In this document: positions 4,747 to 46,199 of the stretch, in pieces
Numbering within the stretch: the stretch's first letter is position 1
Layout: each line of letters starts with the position of its first letter
Source: Volvariella volvacea V23
Taxonomy: Eukaryota > Basidiomycota > Agaricomycetes > Agaricales > Pluteaceae
DNA length: 64,000 nucleotides
NCBI GenBank assembly: GCA_000349905.1
Contig: KB722770.1
Location: forward strand, 69,355-133,354
Reading direction: 5' to 3'
The notes under the pieces: model-generated
The model's input: only the letters and a program-made list of their open reading frames with translations
Databases searched by the model: none
What the model was told of the DNA's origin: nothing
Translations under genes and position numbers: made by a program

Positions 4747-5513
4747 GGGTTAATGGTCAATGAGTAGGACTGAGCCCAATGGAGTTCCCAGCTGGATAGT
4801 GCAGACGCGTGGGAGGAAGCGCCAGATCACGCGCTAGAATGCCTCCAAGACCCCACCTGAACACTCAAGACAGAAACTTGAATCCCTGATACCTGGCTGT
4901 TATTTGAGCTCAGTATCCTATTCAAACTGATCTGTTAAACAATTTTCAAGTTCTGGACTCCACAAAAATAGTGTGTTCCAAGAGTTTAGTCAAAAACTCC
5001 AATGAGTCACCTGACTTTTCTTACGTAAATTTAGCCGAACCAAGCGTGGTTAGGGTTAGAAATAGGCTAGTGTTGTACATGAGCTACTGGCCTTTGTTTC
5101 TTTCCACTCCCACTTCTTTTCTCTCAGAACCATTTCTGCTCTTTGCCTTGTAAATCTGCTGCAACAGGCTTTTTAGTAAGCTAAATGTAGTCTGTCAGCT
5201 GAGTATTCTGACCTTTGGCTATAGGACCTGAATTTCAGGGTGACATCATCACAAGATCCAGGCAGCCTGCCAGCTTCTACTGCACTTGTACCTAATTCTT
5301 TAGGTAAGATCTGCTCCTGACCTAAATTGCCATTATAGTAATAACTTTTTTTGTTCCAATTATTTATCTCACTTATTCAAGATACCCAAGAACAAAGAAA
5401 GTCTGTTTGTTGCCTCAACAGCATCAACATTGTCAGATTAGGTCAGATTTCCTTTCATTCTCATCTTGATTGCTTCTCATAAGAGTTTTTCACATTTTTG
5501 GCCTTATCAGAGC
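4747..5513. other. intergenic, grading into CpG-free DNA
   Basis: This lies between the divergent swd1 start (4746) and the first exon of the 1611-aa gene (5514), so it probably carries both promoters. The left 100 bp has normal CpG content. From about 4840 CpG becomes rare, and from 5047 onward there is none until 5934. I see no TATA element in a convincing position and no coding frame that extends a neighbour. Confidence 0.5.
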
Positions 5514-5933
5514 ATGCCTACATCACCTAGCAGCTTGGTCACTTTAGACTCACCAACCACTCCCACCAGCAATTCCACACATAGGCACAGTTCCTCAGGT
5601 GGCCTAGTGTCATTGGTGGCCACATCTAATGCTTTGTCAGAAGAGTCTCAGATGTCTACCCAGGTGAGTAATAATTTCCCATATTTGTTTTTTTTTCCAC
5701 ATCACTGTGACCATGTGTTTGGTACAAGGAATAACAAAGTGCTAAATCATTGATCTGTAGGCTTCCAGCTCTGTACCACAAAGACCACAAAAATCAAGGT
5801 CAAATCTGAATGGAAACACTGGTCAAAGGTCAAGTAGGACCAGTGGTGTAGCCAGTACACAGAGCTCTGCCACCTCAAAGCTTCCTGATCCCATGGCAAT
5901 GACATCATCCATTGATCAAGATCTGGGTGTCCT
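5047..5933. other. CpG-free island over promoter and first exon
   Basis: There is no CG dinucleotide on this 887-bp stretch (last at 5045-5046, next at 5934-5935), whereas the coding body just downstream has one every 10-20 bases. The stretch is rich in TG and CA, the products expected from deamination of methylated CpG. It covers the presumed promoter, exon 1, intron 1 and the first ~170 bp of exon 2 of the 1611-aa gene. The reading frame through it is open, with good splice sites. I cannot tell whether it is an old inserted sequence adopted as an exon or a locally methylated host promoter. Confidence 0.75.
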
Positions 5934-22163: not shown

Positions 22164-25100
22164 TCATACCCCAGATGGGGGCTCACATGTCTCCTGAAGT
22201 AGGGCAAAACGCCTGGTGGTCTCTTCTCCCCAGTTTGCTTTCCCATTTCTATCTAACTCTGTAAGATTATGACATGAGACTTTGTACCAGCAATAAAAGA
22301 GGAGAATTAAAACTGACCTTGTCCAGCATAGTGTATTAGAAATTCATGAGAGCCAGCTGGAATGTCAAGAACTGTCCAGCTCCATTTTCCACTAATGCAT
22401 GTGCCAAGTGCTTGCCCACAGTCCTGAGATTTATCTAATGGAGCATTAGTGGTAAAGTATTGTAATGCACCATCAACAAATATCTGCAGCACAAGGTCTT
22501 GTGCATCTAAATCAACAAATAAAATTCTATGATCTGTTGGCCAGGATATGTTATATGGAATTGATAATGGGTAGCCATCTGCATTTAAAGAAAACTCCAA
22601 GATTTTGGGTGGCTGCACATAACTAGGCCCAAGGCAAGGCACTGAGATTCCACTATTTGGTTGAGATTTCTGAGATGAGGGCCTGACTTGTTCTGCCTTG
22701 AATTCTTCAAGTATTTTTGTTTTTATAGCTAGAGCAGGATTTGGAGAAGCAAGTAGAGGCTCCTTTGGGTTATAATGCTTTTCCATGTGGAGGGCTAGAA
22801 CATTGATTATATTTAACAAAATCTGTTTGAGAATACTATAATTTCTTACCAATAAAAATTGACATATACAAAAATAGTATATTTTGCCAAAGTAACCCAT
22901 TGAAAAATGCCATTGTGTGCTTTTTTAACCACTTTCTATAATTGGTTTCAGCATGTAAATCAGCATGTGTCAAGTATACATACAGTTCTATAGGCCATTG
23001 ATCTTTTGAAGGCTTGCTTTCTGATAAACTTAAACCTGCAAAGCAGTTATCTGCTTTCCAGTGTTCAAAAAGGTTACTTGTATCACAAGAAAAAAACTTT
23101 TGATTGTGCTATAAAAATGTTAGTGAGTCTTAAGTGAAGCAAAAATATACCCACTGTTAACCAGAAAGAAACATTATTGTTGTTAAACCCATGGTAGTGA
23201 TATTCTTTTGGAAGTTTTTGTAACAATTGAAAGACTTCCTTTTTAATTTGTGAGCCTTCTTCAGCTAACTCTATCTGGGGTTCATTTTGCAAATCCTGTC
23301 TAAAGAATTGTTTCTATTAAATTATGAGGTGATGATGGTAAGTTCACTTACTGAAATAAATTCCATGCCATACTCCAAGCTTTGAGATGTTTCAAGTCAG
23401 AAGAAGATCTAAAAATTATATCTTAAATCCATAAGCAATAAGTAATAAGTTAAACTTACAACATTTGTACCAATGTTTGGTTTGTTAAGACAACCAAGAT
23501 TATACCAACAAAACCATCCAAATTAAGCTTGCTAAGCTGGTGTTTTTTGACATTGTAAAGCCTGGTATAGGCCTTTCCTAGAGCCATTAAGCCCTTCCAT
23601 GACAAGAAACAGTTGCTCTCTAGACAAACAAGGCAATAACTTTGAGTTTGCCATATATACTGAAAATATAGCTGAAACCAAGAAGCATATTGTAAAGAGC
23701 TAAATGCAGATCTGTCAAACTTGACAAGTAATTCTGGGTAGTTCTACTTTAGATTTAGCCAAGGCTATCAAGTGGTGCAAAACAAGCAACATACCCAATG
23801 TTGACATTGATCAACAAATCTCAGATATGCTCCCTCTTCCTCAGCATACAAACTTCTAAAATCTCTCACCATGTGCATTACCACTGCATCAAAATCAAGC
23901 TTCACCATTAAGGCCACAACACATTCTGATAGGTCTCCCCTATCTAAAAGTGTGCTACATCTCCACCAATACTGACATATAGCTTGAAGAACAGAGGAAG
24001 TCATGTTACTTTTATCCTCCAACCTCATTAAGCACTTTTCTACTATTCTGAGTGCATATGCCTTCTTATTAATGTAATAACTCTTGCTGCGGTAAGGATC
24101 CAGCAGGAAGTCGGAAAAAGACTGATGGTGCACCGCTAACTCTGCATCATAATGACTGGGTATCGCGAGAACCGAATGGAGTCTTCGGAGCAGTATACGA
24201 CTTGGATTTTCAGGGTTTGTGACTATGGCCAAATCGAAATCTCGAAGAGTTGCTTTTTTATTCCATGTGGTGGTGGCACTCTCTATCACCAGAAATAGGA
24301 GCTCCCCTATTTCACTGTTATCGGGTTTATGTGACGATTTCATGACGTGGATGTAGAGTTTGTCAAGGAAGATAAAAGCTCTGGCATCTTGCCTGAGACA
24401 ATCTTGCAGCAATAAATGCGGATCGCCATTAGACTGAGAAAGAAATCTGAAAAGAGTGAGCGGGTAGATATACTGTCCACCTGCCCTAAGCGCAATGAGG
24501 TTGACATCGGCGTGCGCAGGCCATACTCCGTCAACAGCACGGGATTGGAGGATATCTATGTGCCTGTGGTACAAGGCTAAGAACCTGGCCCTGATAAACT
24601 TCCGCATCTCTCCATCGATATCAATAGCGCCAAGGTTAATTGAGGGTCGACACCAGTGCATAAGTGGTGGTGTATGAAAGGTATTAGTGATGTGGGGTTC
24701 CGGGCGGCTTGCTATAAGGAATGCCGGACGAAAGTGCTGTTCGCATGACTTCCTGACAAGGTCCAAGACTCTGAGCTGATCGCCTTCGTCTTCGCATTCG
24801 TCCAATCCGTCTATGATGATGACCGCCGCGGGAAATGTGGGAGCTGAAATAACAGGTTCGATGATGAGCTTCCTCCATTGCACGTCGAGGTGTGCTTGCA
24901 AGACCAGCGGGTCACTTTCAATGACTCGAATGATCTCCTCCCCAACGCTAGGAAAAGTCACCGCTAGTCGATAAGCCAGAGTTGCGACGAAGGCTTTGAG
25001 GTTGTTGCGGGCTGAATCGCCACGGAAGAAGAAGAACGAGCCAGCTACCTCGCCACAGGAGATTTCGTTGTCTATCCTGTCTGCGGTGGTTTTCGCGATA

Positions 25101-25491
25101 GCCGATTTTCCAGTTCCAACAGGACCCCTCAACCATAGGACACCCTTTTCTCGTCGCGGATCAAGTATCCAAGATAGAATGTCGTCAAAAATTGCTTGAC
25201 GTGTCCCCTCGTCGCACCCTAATGGTTCAGCACGGACTTCGCCCGTGTGCATAGCATTTGGGACAACAAACTCTTTCAGCTGCTTGAGACCTTGAAAGAG
25301 ACACATGAATAAAAAGCATCCAAAAGAAATCGACCGCTACCCCTACCTTCTCTAGAATGATCGAGGACTCTGATGTTGTACATGTTATTGCTATTAACGT
25401 TTGTCTCCATCCTTCCCGTATTGGTAATCTGTGAGTTCGTGATGGCCTCTGCAAACGTGGGATTGGTGTCTAGCTTGTGACCGATAGACAT
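22164..25491 (-). CDS. NACHT NTPase (NLR-like) with long unrecognised C-terminal half
   Basis: My model has eight exons: 25491-25347, 25290-23795, 23743-23460, 23408-23352, 23299-23155, 23108-22850, 22794-22318 and 22258-22164; 985 aa. Introns are 46-59 nt with good donors. After a short variable N-terminus comes the mushroom-type NACHT module: GTRQAIFDDILSWILDP, Walker A GPVGTGKSA (residues ~104-112), an FFFFR sensor-like segment, Walker B IIIDGLDECED (~206-216), then SRPEPHI and a helical region with HHQSFSDFLLDP. Such proteins are STAND-class ATPase switches thought to act in non-self recognition and cell death in fungi. The C-terminal ~438 residues (exons 3-8) match no family I know; they include a hydrophobic segment GFVGIILVVLTNQTL and a beta-rich end with WTVLDIPAGSHEFLIHYAG. 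A paralogue at 44.8-45.6 kb conserves exon 3, supporting the extension. If exon 2 is read through instead, the protein stops at 23768 (555 aa). Confidence 0.78.
22212..24089. other. CpG-free block over the NLR-like 3' half
   Basis: There is no CG dinucleotide in 1878 bp (neighbours at 22210-22211 and 24090-24091), yet the upstream part of the same exon (24090-25290) has normal CpG density. The block is also AT-richer. The edge falls inside exon 2 near residue 449. Everything from there to the last exon is CpG-free but retains open frames and splice sites. Confidence 0.8.
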
Positions 25492-40019: not shown

Positions 40020-41784
40020 TCGTCGCTGGGCGCACAGGCGCCCAGCAGTGGCTGCATTCCAGGACTCCTGCGTCAATAACAGGAACGGGGTGATTGTGAC
40101 GAATATTTCCAATACGGCTTACAACTATGGGTCCCATTTACTTTCTAAACGAGGTACAAGCCGTGTCACCCTTCTTCGGGATAAGGACACGCGTCAGGCA
40201 ATCCTCAACGATACCGTATCTTGGATACTCGACCCGCACAGGGAGAGGGGTGTTTTGTGGCTGAAGGGCACTGTAGGGACCGGTAAATCCGCCATCGCGA
40301 AGACCACAGCAGACAGGTTGGAGAGAGAGGATTTGGACGGCAGAGTAGCGGGTTCATTCTTCTTCTTCCGGAACGATCCCAAGCGCAACAACCTCAAAGG
40401 ACTCGTCTCGTCCTTGGTGTATCGATTGGTAATCTCGATACCAGCCGTAGGGGAGAATGTCTTTCAGGTTCTCGAAAACGATCCGCATGTCCTGCAGACA
40501 TGGCTGGAGGTTCAATGGAGGAGGCTCATCCTCGAACCCATTCAAGAGGTTGGAGTTCACTCTATTCCGCCGGCCGTCTTCATAGACGGATTAGACGAGT
40601 GCGGAGATGAAGAGGACCAGAAGGAGGTTTTACGCCTCGTTGCGTCGTGCGGACCCAACTTCCCCCTAGCCTTTCTCATTTCAAGCCGCCCAGAGCCTCA
40701 CATCACCAATACCTTCTCCACTCCACCGCTCGCAGACCCCTGCCGACGCCCAATTGACCTCAACTCTGTCAGGGTGTACTAAGAGACGCGGGAGTTTGTC
40801 AGGGACGGGTTCCATAGAATCTGGTCGGACTACAGGTATATGAACCAGATTCACGGCGCGGAATATCCAGCGCCTTCGGACGACGGCATCAACCTCATCG
40901 CCTTCAGGGCTGGTGGGCAATACCTCTACCCTGTCACCCTCATTCGGTTCCTCACCCGACCTGGTGTCGGTCCACTCAAGTCGTTGCAGGACTTACGGCA
41001 GTCTCCACAGGCCTTTCACTCCCATCATGAAGTTGTCGCACGAACCCAGCAATAGGATTAAAGAGCTGCTATTCCTCGTGATTTGGGGCAGCACATGGAA
41101 CAAGCAAGTAGCGTTCCAGGATCTGGATATAATCATGGATCCCGGCAGTCCAGGAGTTCAGCAGTGCCATTCGGTGCTCCAAAGGCTTCACTCCGTTCTC
41201 GCAATTCCGAAACATAAAGACAAGGGGATAACACACTGTGGGCAATGTTTGAGACCGGTGTCGGAGAATACCGAGAACAAACCTTGAAGTAACTTCTAGT
41301 TAGCACCTCGGTATCTCTGTTAGATAAACTGTGAATATGCTCAAATTTCATGTCAAAGTAAATTCACTTTACCAGCAGTCGGATGTATAATAGGTTCATG
41401 ACAAGGTATCAGATTCAATAGTATGTGAGTGTTGAAAAAAAGTATATTCATAGCAAGTTGAGAGATTTTACTAGGCTGTATTGTAAAAGGATGTGAGAGG
41501 AATGTAATGTTGGTATATATAGATGACAAATTAGAGAGACATGTACAAAATAAACTGTGATGATACAATAAAGACCATCCACAAAGTGACAAGGAATGGA
41601 GCAAAGGGTAGGTGGATGGCTAATGACTTAGGTCATAGTTGACAACACTGATTGCAAAGTAGATGGTGGCAAGATAACCTGGAGATTTGATGATGGCAGA
41701 CCAAGTCTTTCGTTTCTTGATGCTTGCTTCTCCAGCAGGTATGCCTCCCCCCTCAAACTGAAAATTTCACAGTTGTTGTTACTA

Positions 41785-41809
41785 CAGTGGCTTGCAAAAG
41801 TATTGCATG
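41785..41809 (+). repeat. left terminal inverted repeat of the Tc1 element
   Basis: Twenty-five bases identical to the reverse complement of 44508-44532; preceded by the TA duplication. Confidence 0.92.
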
Positions 41810-42439
41810 TGACCCCTGCTGTCTGTTGGACAGACTGTTAATATGGACTGGACTTATGGTTATCCAGACCAAGTATATGGACTGGTACTTGGAATGCACA
41901 CATGTTACAGAGAAATACATGGCTAGATATACATGGTAGATAGTCATAGGATATAGGTAGATAGATCCTAAGTATCACTGAAGTGACCCACATCAATTCT
42001 GATGTGGATACCATCATTTCCAAAATGGTGGACGGCACTTGTCACTCCTCTGTACAAATAGTTCCAGCATGTACCTATCAGCCCCCCAATCCTCTGATAT
42101 AGATGAAGTATCATTACTCTCTACTTCTAGGTGAGGTGACCTCCATAGCCTCTAGTGCCTGTAAGGCTGCTGTTCAACACTGTCACTTAGATCAAACCAT
42201 GGAACCGAAACTCATGGTAGTGGTGGTGAAAAGCATGTCTATAGTGTGGTAATAATACATGTTGTTGGTTTTCTTGAGTGACCAACCACCTTTCAAGTGT
42301 AATAGAGAATAGGGAGCCAGTGAAATGTGGAGGGGGGGGTGCAATACTTATGCACAAGTGGTAGTGAATGAAAAAACTCATTTCCCCATCTTTCCAAGCA
42401 TACTTGTGGGACAAAAACTGCCTCTCATTGATTTTTTGG

Positions 42440-44141
42440 CATAGTTTATACTTCCCTAACCAAAGTTGCACATGTTGTTGAGCTCCACAAGGCTCAGAGG
42501 TCACACAATGCCATTATCAAGGATGTAGACCTCCATTGCACCACTGTGGGCTGCCTTTTGAAGAAGTTCAAGAAATCAGGTGACTACCACCACATAAACC
42601 ATAAAACAGGTTGTCCTCAAAAGTTGGAGGCATATGAGATCTGGATGGCAGCCTGTGCACTTGCAGCAACCCAGGCAGCCAATGTTATTGAGGTCCAAAA
42701 GAAGTTTCTTCCACAAGTCCACTGTCAGGAATTGTATCTTTATTCCCTATTTATTCACCAATTATTTAATACTTAATTTCTTTTTCTTTTTCTTTTTCTA
42801 AGTGCCAGGGACCATGTGACTTGCTTACTTAATCCAGATTAGATTAGATTACATCTTGACCACATGATGCATTACCTTTTGAGCCACCTTTGGAGGTCTT
42901 GGGCATTGAGGTATTCTTGGCAGTGTCATTAGTCTTAAAGCCATTATCCCGGCTCATGGCTTATCTCTACCCAATGGGGTCTTAGTGATACCAGACACTG
43001 GTGATGTCATCATGGGGTCATGGATAGATATCTGTAGAATAGTCTGGAATAGTGTAAATATGTACATACAGACTCTGGTGAATATATAAGTGGGCTTGGT
43101 TGGCTCTGGGGGTTTTCCTCAGTTTCAACCTTGTCTACTCTGCCAAGCTAGCTTTGTCTCAGAGACTCTGGTGCAACCTGAATTAACAGGCTACTAAGAG
43201 ATGAGTACACATTGTTAGGATTTTTGTATCCCTCTCATCTCCTCTGCCAGCTAGTAGTGAGAGTTTTCGCAACCATGCCATCAGTGATACCTGGGCACCA
43301 CTATGTGGGTGATCCCTTGTAGTAGGCCCATCTGATAACATGTAAAGATGTGCACCGAGTAGTTGTTATTTCCCCTTCTTTTTTCTCTTTTAATTATTGT
43401 CTCCTGTATATTGTCTTTGGGGCCAAGTGCCCTTGTTGCTGACATCCACCCCACTACAATTGGATGCAGGTTATGAGAGCATGGCCTAGTCTGTTGAGTT
43501 CGCAGGTCTAAACCCTTTCTTTCAAAGATACACAAGCAGCAGCACAGGAAATGGGCACTTGAGCATTTATTATGGACTCAGGAGGATTGGGAGGTGGTGG
43601 TATTTTCAGATGAGTTGAAATTCCAGCTATTCAAGTCCAATGGCTGCCAATATTGTTGGATCATGCCAGGACAGGCCCTGGATAAAAGATATACAAATAA
43701 AACAGTCAAGCATAGAGGTGCATCACTTCAAAGGGTATGGGGCACCTTTATTGCATTAATGGGATCATGTATGGCCCTGATTATGTTGAGATCCTGGATA
43801 AGGAATATCTTGGGACATTGAAGGATCTGAAAATTAAAAAGAATAATATCCTATTTCAGCAGGACAATAACCTGAAACACCAGAGTAAGGTTGCTGAAGC
43901 TTGGTTTGAGGCAAAAAAGGTCCATTGCTTGTCCTGGCCAGCCTTGAGTCCAGATATGAGTACCATTGAGCCTGTATGGGGTACACTTGATTGCATGGTA
44001 TGTGTGCATGACCCCCTCTCACACAATAAAGAGGAGCTATGGGTCACACTTCAAGAGGAATGGGCTCAGTTCCCCAAGGAGCAATTGAAGAAGCTTTACA
44101 AGAGCATACTCTGTCATATTGCTGCTCTTCTCAAGGCTTGA
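42440..44141 (+). pseudogene. Tc1-type transposase remnant
   Basis: Part 1 (42440-42727) encodes a helix-turn-helix DNA-binding region (ELHKAQRSHNAIIKD, GCLLKKFKKSGD, then a TGCPQKL turn). Foreign sequence separates it from part 2 (43467-44141). There RSKPFLSKIHKQQHRKWALE leads into VVFSDE (first Asp), ILFQQDN (second Asp) and STIEPVWG (Glu), with 34 residues between the second Asp and the Glu, which defines DD34E. Two in-frame TGA codons (REHGLVC region, around 43474 and 43495) sit where Arg is expected and can be explained as CGA changed to TGA by CpG decay. A frameshift with a small deletion lies near 43735. It cannot make an active enzyme. Confidence 0.85.
42728..43465. other. insertion of unknown type within the transposase
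   Basis: About 740 bp split the transposase between a VHCQ codon block and RLREHGLVC. It has a TTTTTC tract at its left, a TATATAAG-like string near 43082-43090 and CpG-poor composition. It could be a solo LTR because it has a promoter-like centre and no coding frame, but I find no clear TG...CA ends or target duplication. Exact edges are uncertain by about 10 bp. Confidence 0.45.
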
Positions 44142-44351
44142 GGTGGACATACAAAATACTAGCTGGTACGTGGCTGGATATAAACTATTTCATTCACATC
44201 ATCCTCATCTCCAGCATGCACAGCTGTATACATAAGTATTGCACCCCCCCCCCTCCCCCCCAAAATTAATCCCATTGATATTTCTTTTCATTTTATATTC
44301 TAACCCCTTTATTACATGCATATCATTGTTCTACAGATGTTTTACTCCCAA

Positions 44352-44451
44352 NNNNNNNNNNNNNNNNNNNNNNNNNNNNNNNNNNNNNNNNNNNNNNNNN
44401 NNNNNNNNNNNNNNNNNNNNNNNNNNNNNNNNNNNNNNNNNNNNNNNNNNN
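44352..44451. other. assembly gap (100 N)
   Basis: Exactly 100 unknown bases inside the right part of the Tc1 element, the usual placeholder for a gap of unknown size. The real size and content of the element's right arm are therefore not known. Confidence 0.98.
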
Positions 44452-44507
44452 GCCTGTTCTCAGTTTTGGCTTCACACCTTGGCAAGGTTATGATCACTAC
44501 ATGTGAC

Positions 44508-44532
44508 CATGCAATACTTTTGCAAGCCACTG
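44508..44532 (-). repeat. right terminal inverted repeat of the Tc1 element
   Basis: Reverse complement of 41785-41809, followed by TA. The adjoining inner bases diverge. Confidence 0.92.
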
Positions 44533-45335
44533 TATAAAGGTATCCTAATAATACAAAAAATATATCTTATGTCTTGATCATTGTAAATTGTGTGCATTTA
44601 CTGTGAATATACTCAAAACATATCTTTTGATTGTAAACATGCAATACTCTGACAAGACTAAGGATACATACAACAAACATGCTGGAATCAGTATACTGAA
44701 ACATACCCTGAGAATCTTCAGGGTTTGTTGTGGTGGTTTCCATCTGTTGGTCTTTTTATTACTATTTTTGGTATATTCAGCTTACTGGCCATGCCAGTCT
44801 CAAACATTGCCTATGGTGACAATTCATCATCAGTCATTCTCTGACTTCCTGCTTGATTGCTATAAAAGCAAGAGCTATTATGTCAATAAAATGGGTTGTG
44901 CATTGAGGATATTGGAGAGAAGCTTATCAGTGCTAAGGGATGATAGATGCTCATGCCCTGATGCCTATATTCTTGCATTCTATTGGTGGTGGTGCTCTAC
45001 ATTTCTGAAGTGGAAGGATCTTTCAGAGAATGTTGTGATGTGGATGAAGGAGCTTGACTCCAATCAATTATTGGAATGTATTTTAAGGACTTCTGGGGCT
45101 TCAACATTCGAAGAGCAGGCCTATAGCAGTTTTGTTGACCAATGTCAAAAATGAGTATGTGGGTTTATATATCACTTGTTGTAGTCTTGCTAAATCTAAG
45201 TTAGAATTGCCCAGACTTGATAATCAAATTTGACAAGTTATTCTTCAGCCATGCAAGATGTCCTTATTGGTTTAAGCTTCATTTTGAATGCCTGTGGCAA
45301 TCTTGCAGTAGCTGTCCCAGTCTTTCTACCAGCAG

Positions 45336-45401
45336 TATATTTAACGATATAGCATATTTAATGATATAGTATATTTAATGATATAGTATATTTAATGATA
45401 T
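45336..45401. repeat. 17-bp AT-rich tandem repeat
   Basis: About four copies of a unit like ATATTTAATGATATAGT. The first copy has AACG where the others have AATG. It interrupts the exon 3 homology of the broken NLR-like copy. Confidence 0.8.
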
Positions 45402-45570
45402 GCATGGTGGATCTTGTTCACTGTCATGGAAGGGATTGTTGGCCTTGGGAAAAGCTTATATTGGGTATCATAAAATCAAAGATGGCTAGTTTGGCAAGCT
45501 TAAAGCAGATGACATTGTTGTTATAACCTTAGTTGTTTTAACTAGTCTGGCACTGTTGCAAGGCTTGTAA

Positions 45571-46199
45571 GTTTTGTTTACCATTATATCCAATACAATC
45601 ACTGACATTGTTTAGACCAGACCAAGGTCTTGTATATCTGAAATACTAGAGTAGTGCATGGGCTTTACCTTAGTAATTTTACTTGATATTTTTATCTTTG
45701 CTTTACTAATTTAGAACTTAGAAATAAATCACACCAGCCATGGGTAGAATGGGCAAAGGGCAGCCTCCAAAAGCAGCACCAGATTATACAGCTGTTGAGA
45801 CAGCTTCCAGTAAAATATTATCATTCCAAACTCAACCAAGTCAATGTCCTCTCTTGGCTCAATGTAGGCCTTTACCTGTCTTATATCTAGCATAAAGCTA
45901 ACTCTGTTTCTAGAACATTATAGAGGAAAATAAAAAATCAGCTGACTATAATAATGCAATTTGGGTATTTGGGGGAGAGATAACTTAAAAAATTCAAAAC
46001 AATCAGTATCAGAGAAATTCAAAGCACAACTTCCTGATCAATGGTTGTGGATTACTATGGCAGTGTTCCTAGGATTGTTGATATATTTCTTTTATTTTTA
46101 AGATTTTATAGCATACAGTTGTAGAATACTTGTATATTGCAAAATTCCAACAGCACGAGTCGAATTTATACTAATCAATAGCCGAAAGCAAGAACATTT
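45571..46199. other. CpG-poor spacer downstream of the broken NLR-like gene
   Basis: AT-rich and nearly CpG-free up to about 46150, where normal CpG density resumes. A short frame at 45739 (MGRMGKGQPPKAAPDY...) looks protein-like but ends after about 42 codons and cannot be assigned. Confidence 0.4.

Follow-up and report, generated by a model that had tools for sequence, protein, structure and literature searches.

We lean towards reading the minus-strand gene at 22164–25491 of the window (the whole 64,000-nucleotide stretch of Volvariella volvacea DNA analysed here) as one fusion gene, in which a NACHT ATPase with its family tail runs on into the C-terminal part of a gene family that includes Ppo-type genes. 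The predicted fusion is made up of two homologies detected by sequence comparison, one in a NACHT-family tail and one in a C-terminal beta domain, and both parts would be transcribed as one unit. If real, it would tie a NACHT switch to a membrane, perhaps to oxylipin enzymes. The beta domain, which has no name, occurs in several genes of V. volvacea, and the publicly available model for the window gene lacks it.

Gene structure and reading frame

Exon joining gave eight minus-strand exons whose 985 codons, closed by a stop, share one frame. The eight-exon model of the initial annotation was exact to the base, its paired junction numbers being the last and first bases of exons, and its claim that six further exons follow the NACHT core in one open frame held over all 985 codons and the stop, with homology at both ends. 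The exons and the intron uniting the NACHT and beta parts were located as follows.

25491-25347, minus strand: exon 1, N-terminal 48 residues without known domain, identical in the public protein P0001
25290-23795, minus strand: exon 2, NPHP3_N/NACHT ATPase and the helical part that follows it
23743-23460, minus strand: exon 3, NACHT-family tail
23408-23352, minus strand: exon 4, NACHT-family tail
23299-23155, minus strand: exon 5, NACHT-family tail
23108-22850, minus strand: exon 6, end of the tail (to 23043), then junction and hydrophobic segment (22850..23042)
22795..22849, minus strand: exon 6/7 intron, phase 1, GTAAGA...TTCTAG, 55 nt, uniting the NACHT and beta parts
22794-22318, minus strand: exon 7, beta domain from residue 849 (22318..22636), with Cys 849, 921 and 928
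22258-22164, minus strand: exon 8, end of the beta domain with Cys 979, the RRF motif and the stop, matching the last exons of other copies

All seven introns were of the GT-AG type and 46–59 nt long. A stop-free run over residues 548–985 had a chance probability of about 7e-14 at the local base composition; the splice sites were chosen freely in this calculation, so homology weighs more as support for the frame, and it backs the frame at both ends, residues 548–731 matching the paralogue P0002 and residues 840–985 six genomic copies. The weakest point of the model was the exon 6/7 intron, where seven other GT-AG pairs also joined in frame when lengths of 40–129 nt were tried. P0001, a public V. 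volvacea protein, is encoded by this gene too (99.8% over exon 2); its model uses another acceptor after exon 2 and ends at 584 aa, and the C-terminal half is absent from it because of this choice. The initial annotation had noted that the extension is usually missed when exon 2 is read through to 23768.

NACHT core and family tail

The NACHT/STAND ATPase that the initial annotation placed in exons 1 and 2 was recovered with Pfam, in which NPHP3_N matched about residues 77–246 (E 2.8e-26) and the NACHT model reached 26.2 bits, just below its cut-off of 26.7; the residues before 77 had no Pfam match. GPVGTGKS and IIIDGLDE, which we take to be the Walker A and Walker B motifs of the nucleotide-binding domain, are both present in the window protein. 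The host genome (35.4 Mb, 54 contigs) contained at least 150 NPHP3_N matches and 88 NACHT matches. The structure model used was that of the paralogue P0002, not of the window protein (AlphaFold, mean pLDDT 73.6); its top structural matches were MalT, CED-4 and Apaf-1, at E 4e-6 to 6e-6 and with query TM-scores of only 0.21–0.29. The core is of the STAND type.

The core is followed by the tail:

23043..23743, minus strand: NACHT tail, exons 3–5 and the start of exon 6, ending at HWxxxxC

Residues 548–731 matched P0002 (E 4e-24), P0004 (2e-19), P0005 (2e-14) and P0003 (8e-11, reaching only to about residue 659), which are four of the 105 proteins found in the protein search. The P0002 gene was found in locus L027 (98.6% over P0002's main exon). 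As in the window gene, one of its introns falls at the residue where exons 2 and 3 meet and a second one lies ahead of the final HWxxxxC exon; the window gene has one more intron. The tail in the P0002 model was mostly helical, with a lower confidence than the core.

A scan of eight sources detected HWxxxxC in the window gene and in the NACHT genes of L027 (plus strand), L028, L029, L030 and L031, and gave no match in L032, L033 or copy B, a second NACHT copy in the window; an extra match on the minus strand of L027, away from any tail, was set aside. All five genomic paralogues with the motif stop 5–38 residues past it, while the window gene continues for 68 open codons; among annotated proteins of V. 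volvacea, P0004 ends 42 residues past it and P0005 31. By homology, residues 548–731 are the tail that is usual in this host family of NACHT proteins.

Beta domain and its genomic copies

Residues 840–985 matched six other genomic places, on C49, C33 (two), C13, C12 and C18 (best E 5e-23). Two more queries led to these six and to the window's own copy, seven in all, with no further place up to E 0.1. One of the copies on C33 (L025, C33:345500-353700) has a broken frame and was left out of the alignment. The beta-rich end described in the initial annotation proved to be a separate domain at residues 849–979, about 130 residues in length, with four cysteines and DCG, IPxG and WG..RRF-like motifs, all of which the window gene has.

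Alignment of the window sequence with five copies gave 24 invariant columns, among them Cys 849, 921, 928 and 979. Of the 26 columns that do not vary among the other five copies, the window sequence retains 24; when each of the other rows was omitted in its place, the counts were 24/24, 24/24, 24/24, 24/25 and 24/27. The retention of 24 of 26 columns argues that the beta domain is not long dead. dN was 0.56–0.92 in the five window pairs, well below dS, which was 1.44–2.42 in three pairs and beyond the formula in two, that is, near or past saturation.

The beta copies of L023, L024 and L026 lie behind upstream frames that resemble one another. Reading of the wider loci L034–L036 brought out PLYG and RNHN in all three; of these loci, L023 alone showed a P450-like haem motif. 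We take these to be Ppo-type (peroxidase/P450) motifs. The concatenated L023 frames matched An_peroxidase in Pfam (4e-10). No Pfam family was matched by the frames of the L023 P450 region or by a short piece of L024. When the whole genome was searched for An_peroxidase, four places were listed, and no beta locus was among them. The three loci are accordingly termed putatively Ppo-like, on the An_peroxidase match and the motifs. Ppo-type motifs were not found in L021, L022 or L025; L021 shares one short fragment with L023 (E 1e-4; 2e-3 in a second comparison) and another with L022, which has other short fragments in common with C13.

Within an E limit of 1, Pfam gave nothing for residues 548–985, WD40, TPR and ankyrin repeats included, in agreement with the initial annotation. 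The C-terminal half alone and residues 760–985 returned nothing from protein databases by a method that requires shared 5-residue words and so speaks only weakly for absence, and no NACHT-beta fusion elsewhere appeared in the same searches. Only chance-level matches were obtained for the beta profile against solved structures (four, E 1.1–1.2), in NCBIfam (0.087) and among plasmids (E 5–10). Pfam searches with six beta sequences gave Big_3_5 in two (best 0.17; 0.064 on the joined L023 tail) and ABHD16_N in one (0.094), and exon 7 alone was modelled by AlphaFold at pLDDT 36, a model that was set aside. As far as these comparisons go, the beta domain is a separate predicted domain without convincing match to known families, and the initial annotation's suggestion of a possible new module holds for it. 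Its cysteine pattern suggests a location outside the cytosol.

The initial annotation had treated the 438 C-terminal residues as one unknown family. That this whole half is a single new NLR sensor family is highly improbable and was rejected: it has no Pfam match, as such a family might, but query residues ~1–182 and 292–438 match different genomic places and no other place matches both. About 184 residues belong to the NACHT tail and about 130 to the beta domain, with ~117 unassigned residues between them.

Junction of the two parts and copy B

The two parts join within exon 6. Residues 732–848 (~117 residues) showed no significant homology. Their hydropathy peak of 1.61 at residues 781–799 corresponds to a marginal membrane helix, and higher values, up to 1.98, occur at 189, 505 and 624, all of them within the NACHT part or the tail that follows it. 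The hydrophobic segment did not match six Ppo-tail segments significantly, the score being reached by 165–978 of 2000 shuffles. As in the window gene, we read two introns of L021 as phase 1, namely its last one and the one behind a hydrophobic segment.

The second NACHT copy is arranged as follows.

40180-41233 and 44816-45863, plus strand: copy B, a NACHT copy split by a repetitive insert and containing stops

Frames in the insert are presumably those of a Tc1/mariner-like transposase, and a genome search with the insert region gave 64 match rows, those of the window itself among them. At 46048-46128 of the window, copy B matched the DNA of the junction segment and donor region of the window gene (copy A) with a score of 24, reached by none of 300 shuffles (maximum 20); other AT-rich window stretches scored at most 14.5 in the same comparison. 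Under stricter scoring the match reached 27, a score that the best of 100 shuffles also attained, and at the protein level 124, 3 and 9 of 1000 shuffles were as good for the three frames of copy B. This DNA match indicates that the segment was already in place behind the NACHT tail when copies A and B split. Copy B has a stop directly after its HWxxxxC equivalent (LEHYRGK, then stop) and the matching junction DNA also contains one; in the ancestor, the segment that both copies share may therefore have been flanking DNA without coding function. A search for a beta remnant behind copy B came back empty (best score 14.5, against at most 19 for shuffles). The stops in copy B and the hydropathy comparison lower our estimate for both the fusion and its reading as a membrane-spanning receptor.

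The same stop after the NACHT tail of copy B would be expected if 22164–25491 contained two genes, a NACHT gene ending in exon 6 and a separate beta gene starting in exon 6 or the next intron, an alternative that we take seriously while judging it unlikely. The exon 6 frame has a stop ending at 22836. In the upstream direction the beta frame stays open as far as 22924 and includes an in-frame Met, and none of the six other beta copies lies among the NACHT or NPHP3_N matches listed for the genome. Two genes would, however, have to overlap, with a promoter within coding DNA, whereas the donor GTAAGA unites both parts in frame. The open frame of L022 moreover has no Met upstream of the hydrophobic segment, and the same applies to L021 and L023 given the chosen acceptors; the tail thus seems to be spliced to upstream exons in those loci. 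A single gene remains our preferred reading.

CpG depletion

The 3' half of the gene coincides with a tract of unusual composition:

22211..24089, no strand: CpG-free tract, 1,879 bases, 3' end of exon 2 and exons 3–8

About 61 CpG were expected in the tract and one was found counting the edge, against 82 GpC. The bounding CpGs lie in the codons of R449 and R971, and from R449 to the stop the coding sequence has no CpG other than that of R971, an arginine shared by every aligned member of the beta set. Three of ten NACHT genes compared, which were picked for matching tails and not at random, combine a CpG-poor 3' half with a normal 5' half (5'/3' values of 0.92/0.00 in copy A, 0.86/0.06 in copy B and 0.88/0.12 in L032). 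Five 4 kb control stretches contained no CpG-free run of 150 bases, and the tract is single copy in the genome except for copy B. The most likely cause is that methylation led to the decay of CpG. The idea that the low GC marks foreign DNA was rejected; it tracks CpG loss, and the tract matches only itself and copy B in the genome.

Further CpG-free tracts with sharp edges were seen in the window at 5046-5933 and as runs within 41381-46155, and the longest among the loci examined was 6.3 kb (L037 1-6334). The CpG edge in copy A (24089) is about 50 bases from 24130-24147, the counterpart of the insertion site in copy B. A short unread run occurs at ~44350-44450 of the window (X in the frame 44236-44493), inside a CpG-poor stretch.

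The window gene may be silenced, with its CpG-free 3' half as a warning sign. A relic, either the end of a lost gene standing in frame by chance behind a NACHT gene or a fused gene recently dead, would account for the CpG loss, and both the copy B broken by insert and stops and the L025 copy with its broken frame are in line with it; we consider it improbable. The frame is intact across all exons, 24 of 26 invariant columns are kept and dN is well below dS, each of which is still compatible with a very recent death.

Proposed working and comparison with known systems

In the working that we propose for the fusion protein, the NACHT part would be cytosolic and, as in other STAND proteins, would work as a switch driven by the exchange of nucleotides and by oligomerisation. 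The hydrophobic tail segment may pin the protein to a membrane, probably that of Ppo-like proteins; such anchoring is likely in the analysis, though weakly supported. The disulphide-clamped beta domain would then face the outer or lumenal side, where it could sense a ligand or replace the Ppo tail as an integrated decoy. The complete picture, a membrane-spanning NACHT receptor whose exoplasmic, oxylipin-synthase-derived domain serves as a decoy or lipid-signal sensor and wires the STAND switch to the outside or the lumen, is rather doubtful.

Fungal NLR-like proteins are described as intracellular receptors with repeat-type C-termini (PMC4986451, PMC9815663). The window gene has the NACHT/STAND core in common with them and differs in having a C-terminal beta domain in place of any WD40, ankyrin or TPR match. 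A limited look at such literature yielded no fungal NLR-like protein with a membrane-anchored tail or a Ppo-type domain.

The Ppo or linoleate diol synthase-like genes of L023, L024 and L026 share the homologous C-terminal beta domain with the same four cysteines, whereas the 985-aa window protein has neither a peroxidase nor a P450 part in Pfam. NLRs with integrated domains or decoys are known from plants, and there are putative cases in Sordariales (PMC12258605). In these, as predicted for the window gene, a domain from another gene family is fused to a nucleotide-binding receptor; as a difference, the partner in the window gene would be the tail of an enzyme, perhaps placed outside the cytosol.
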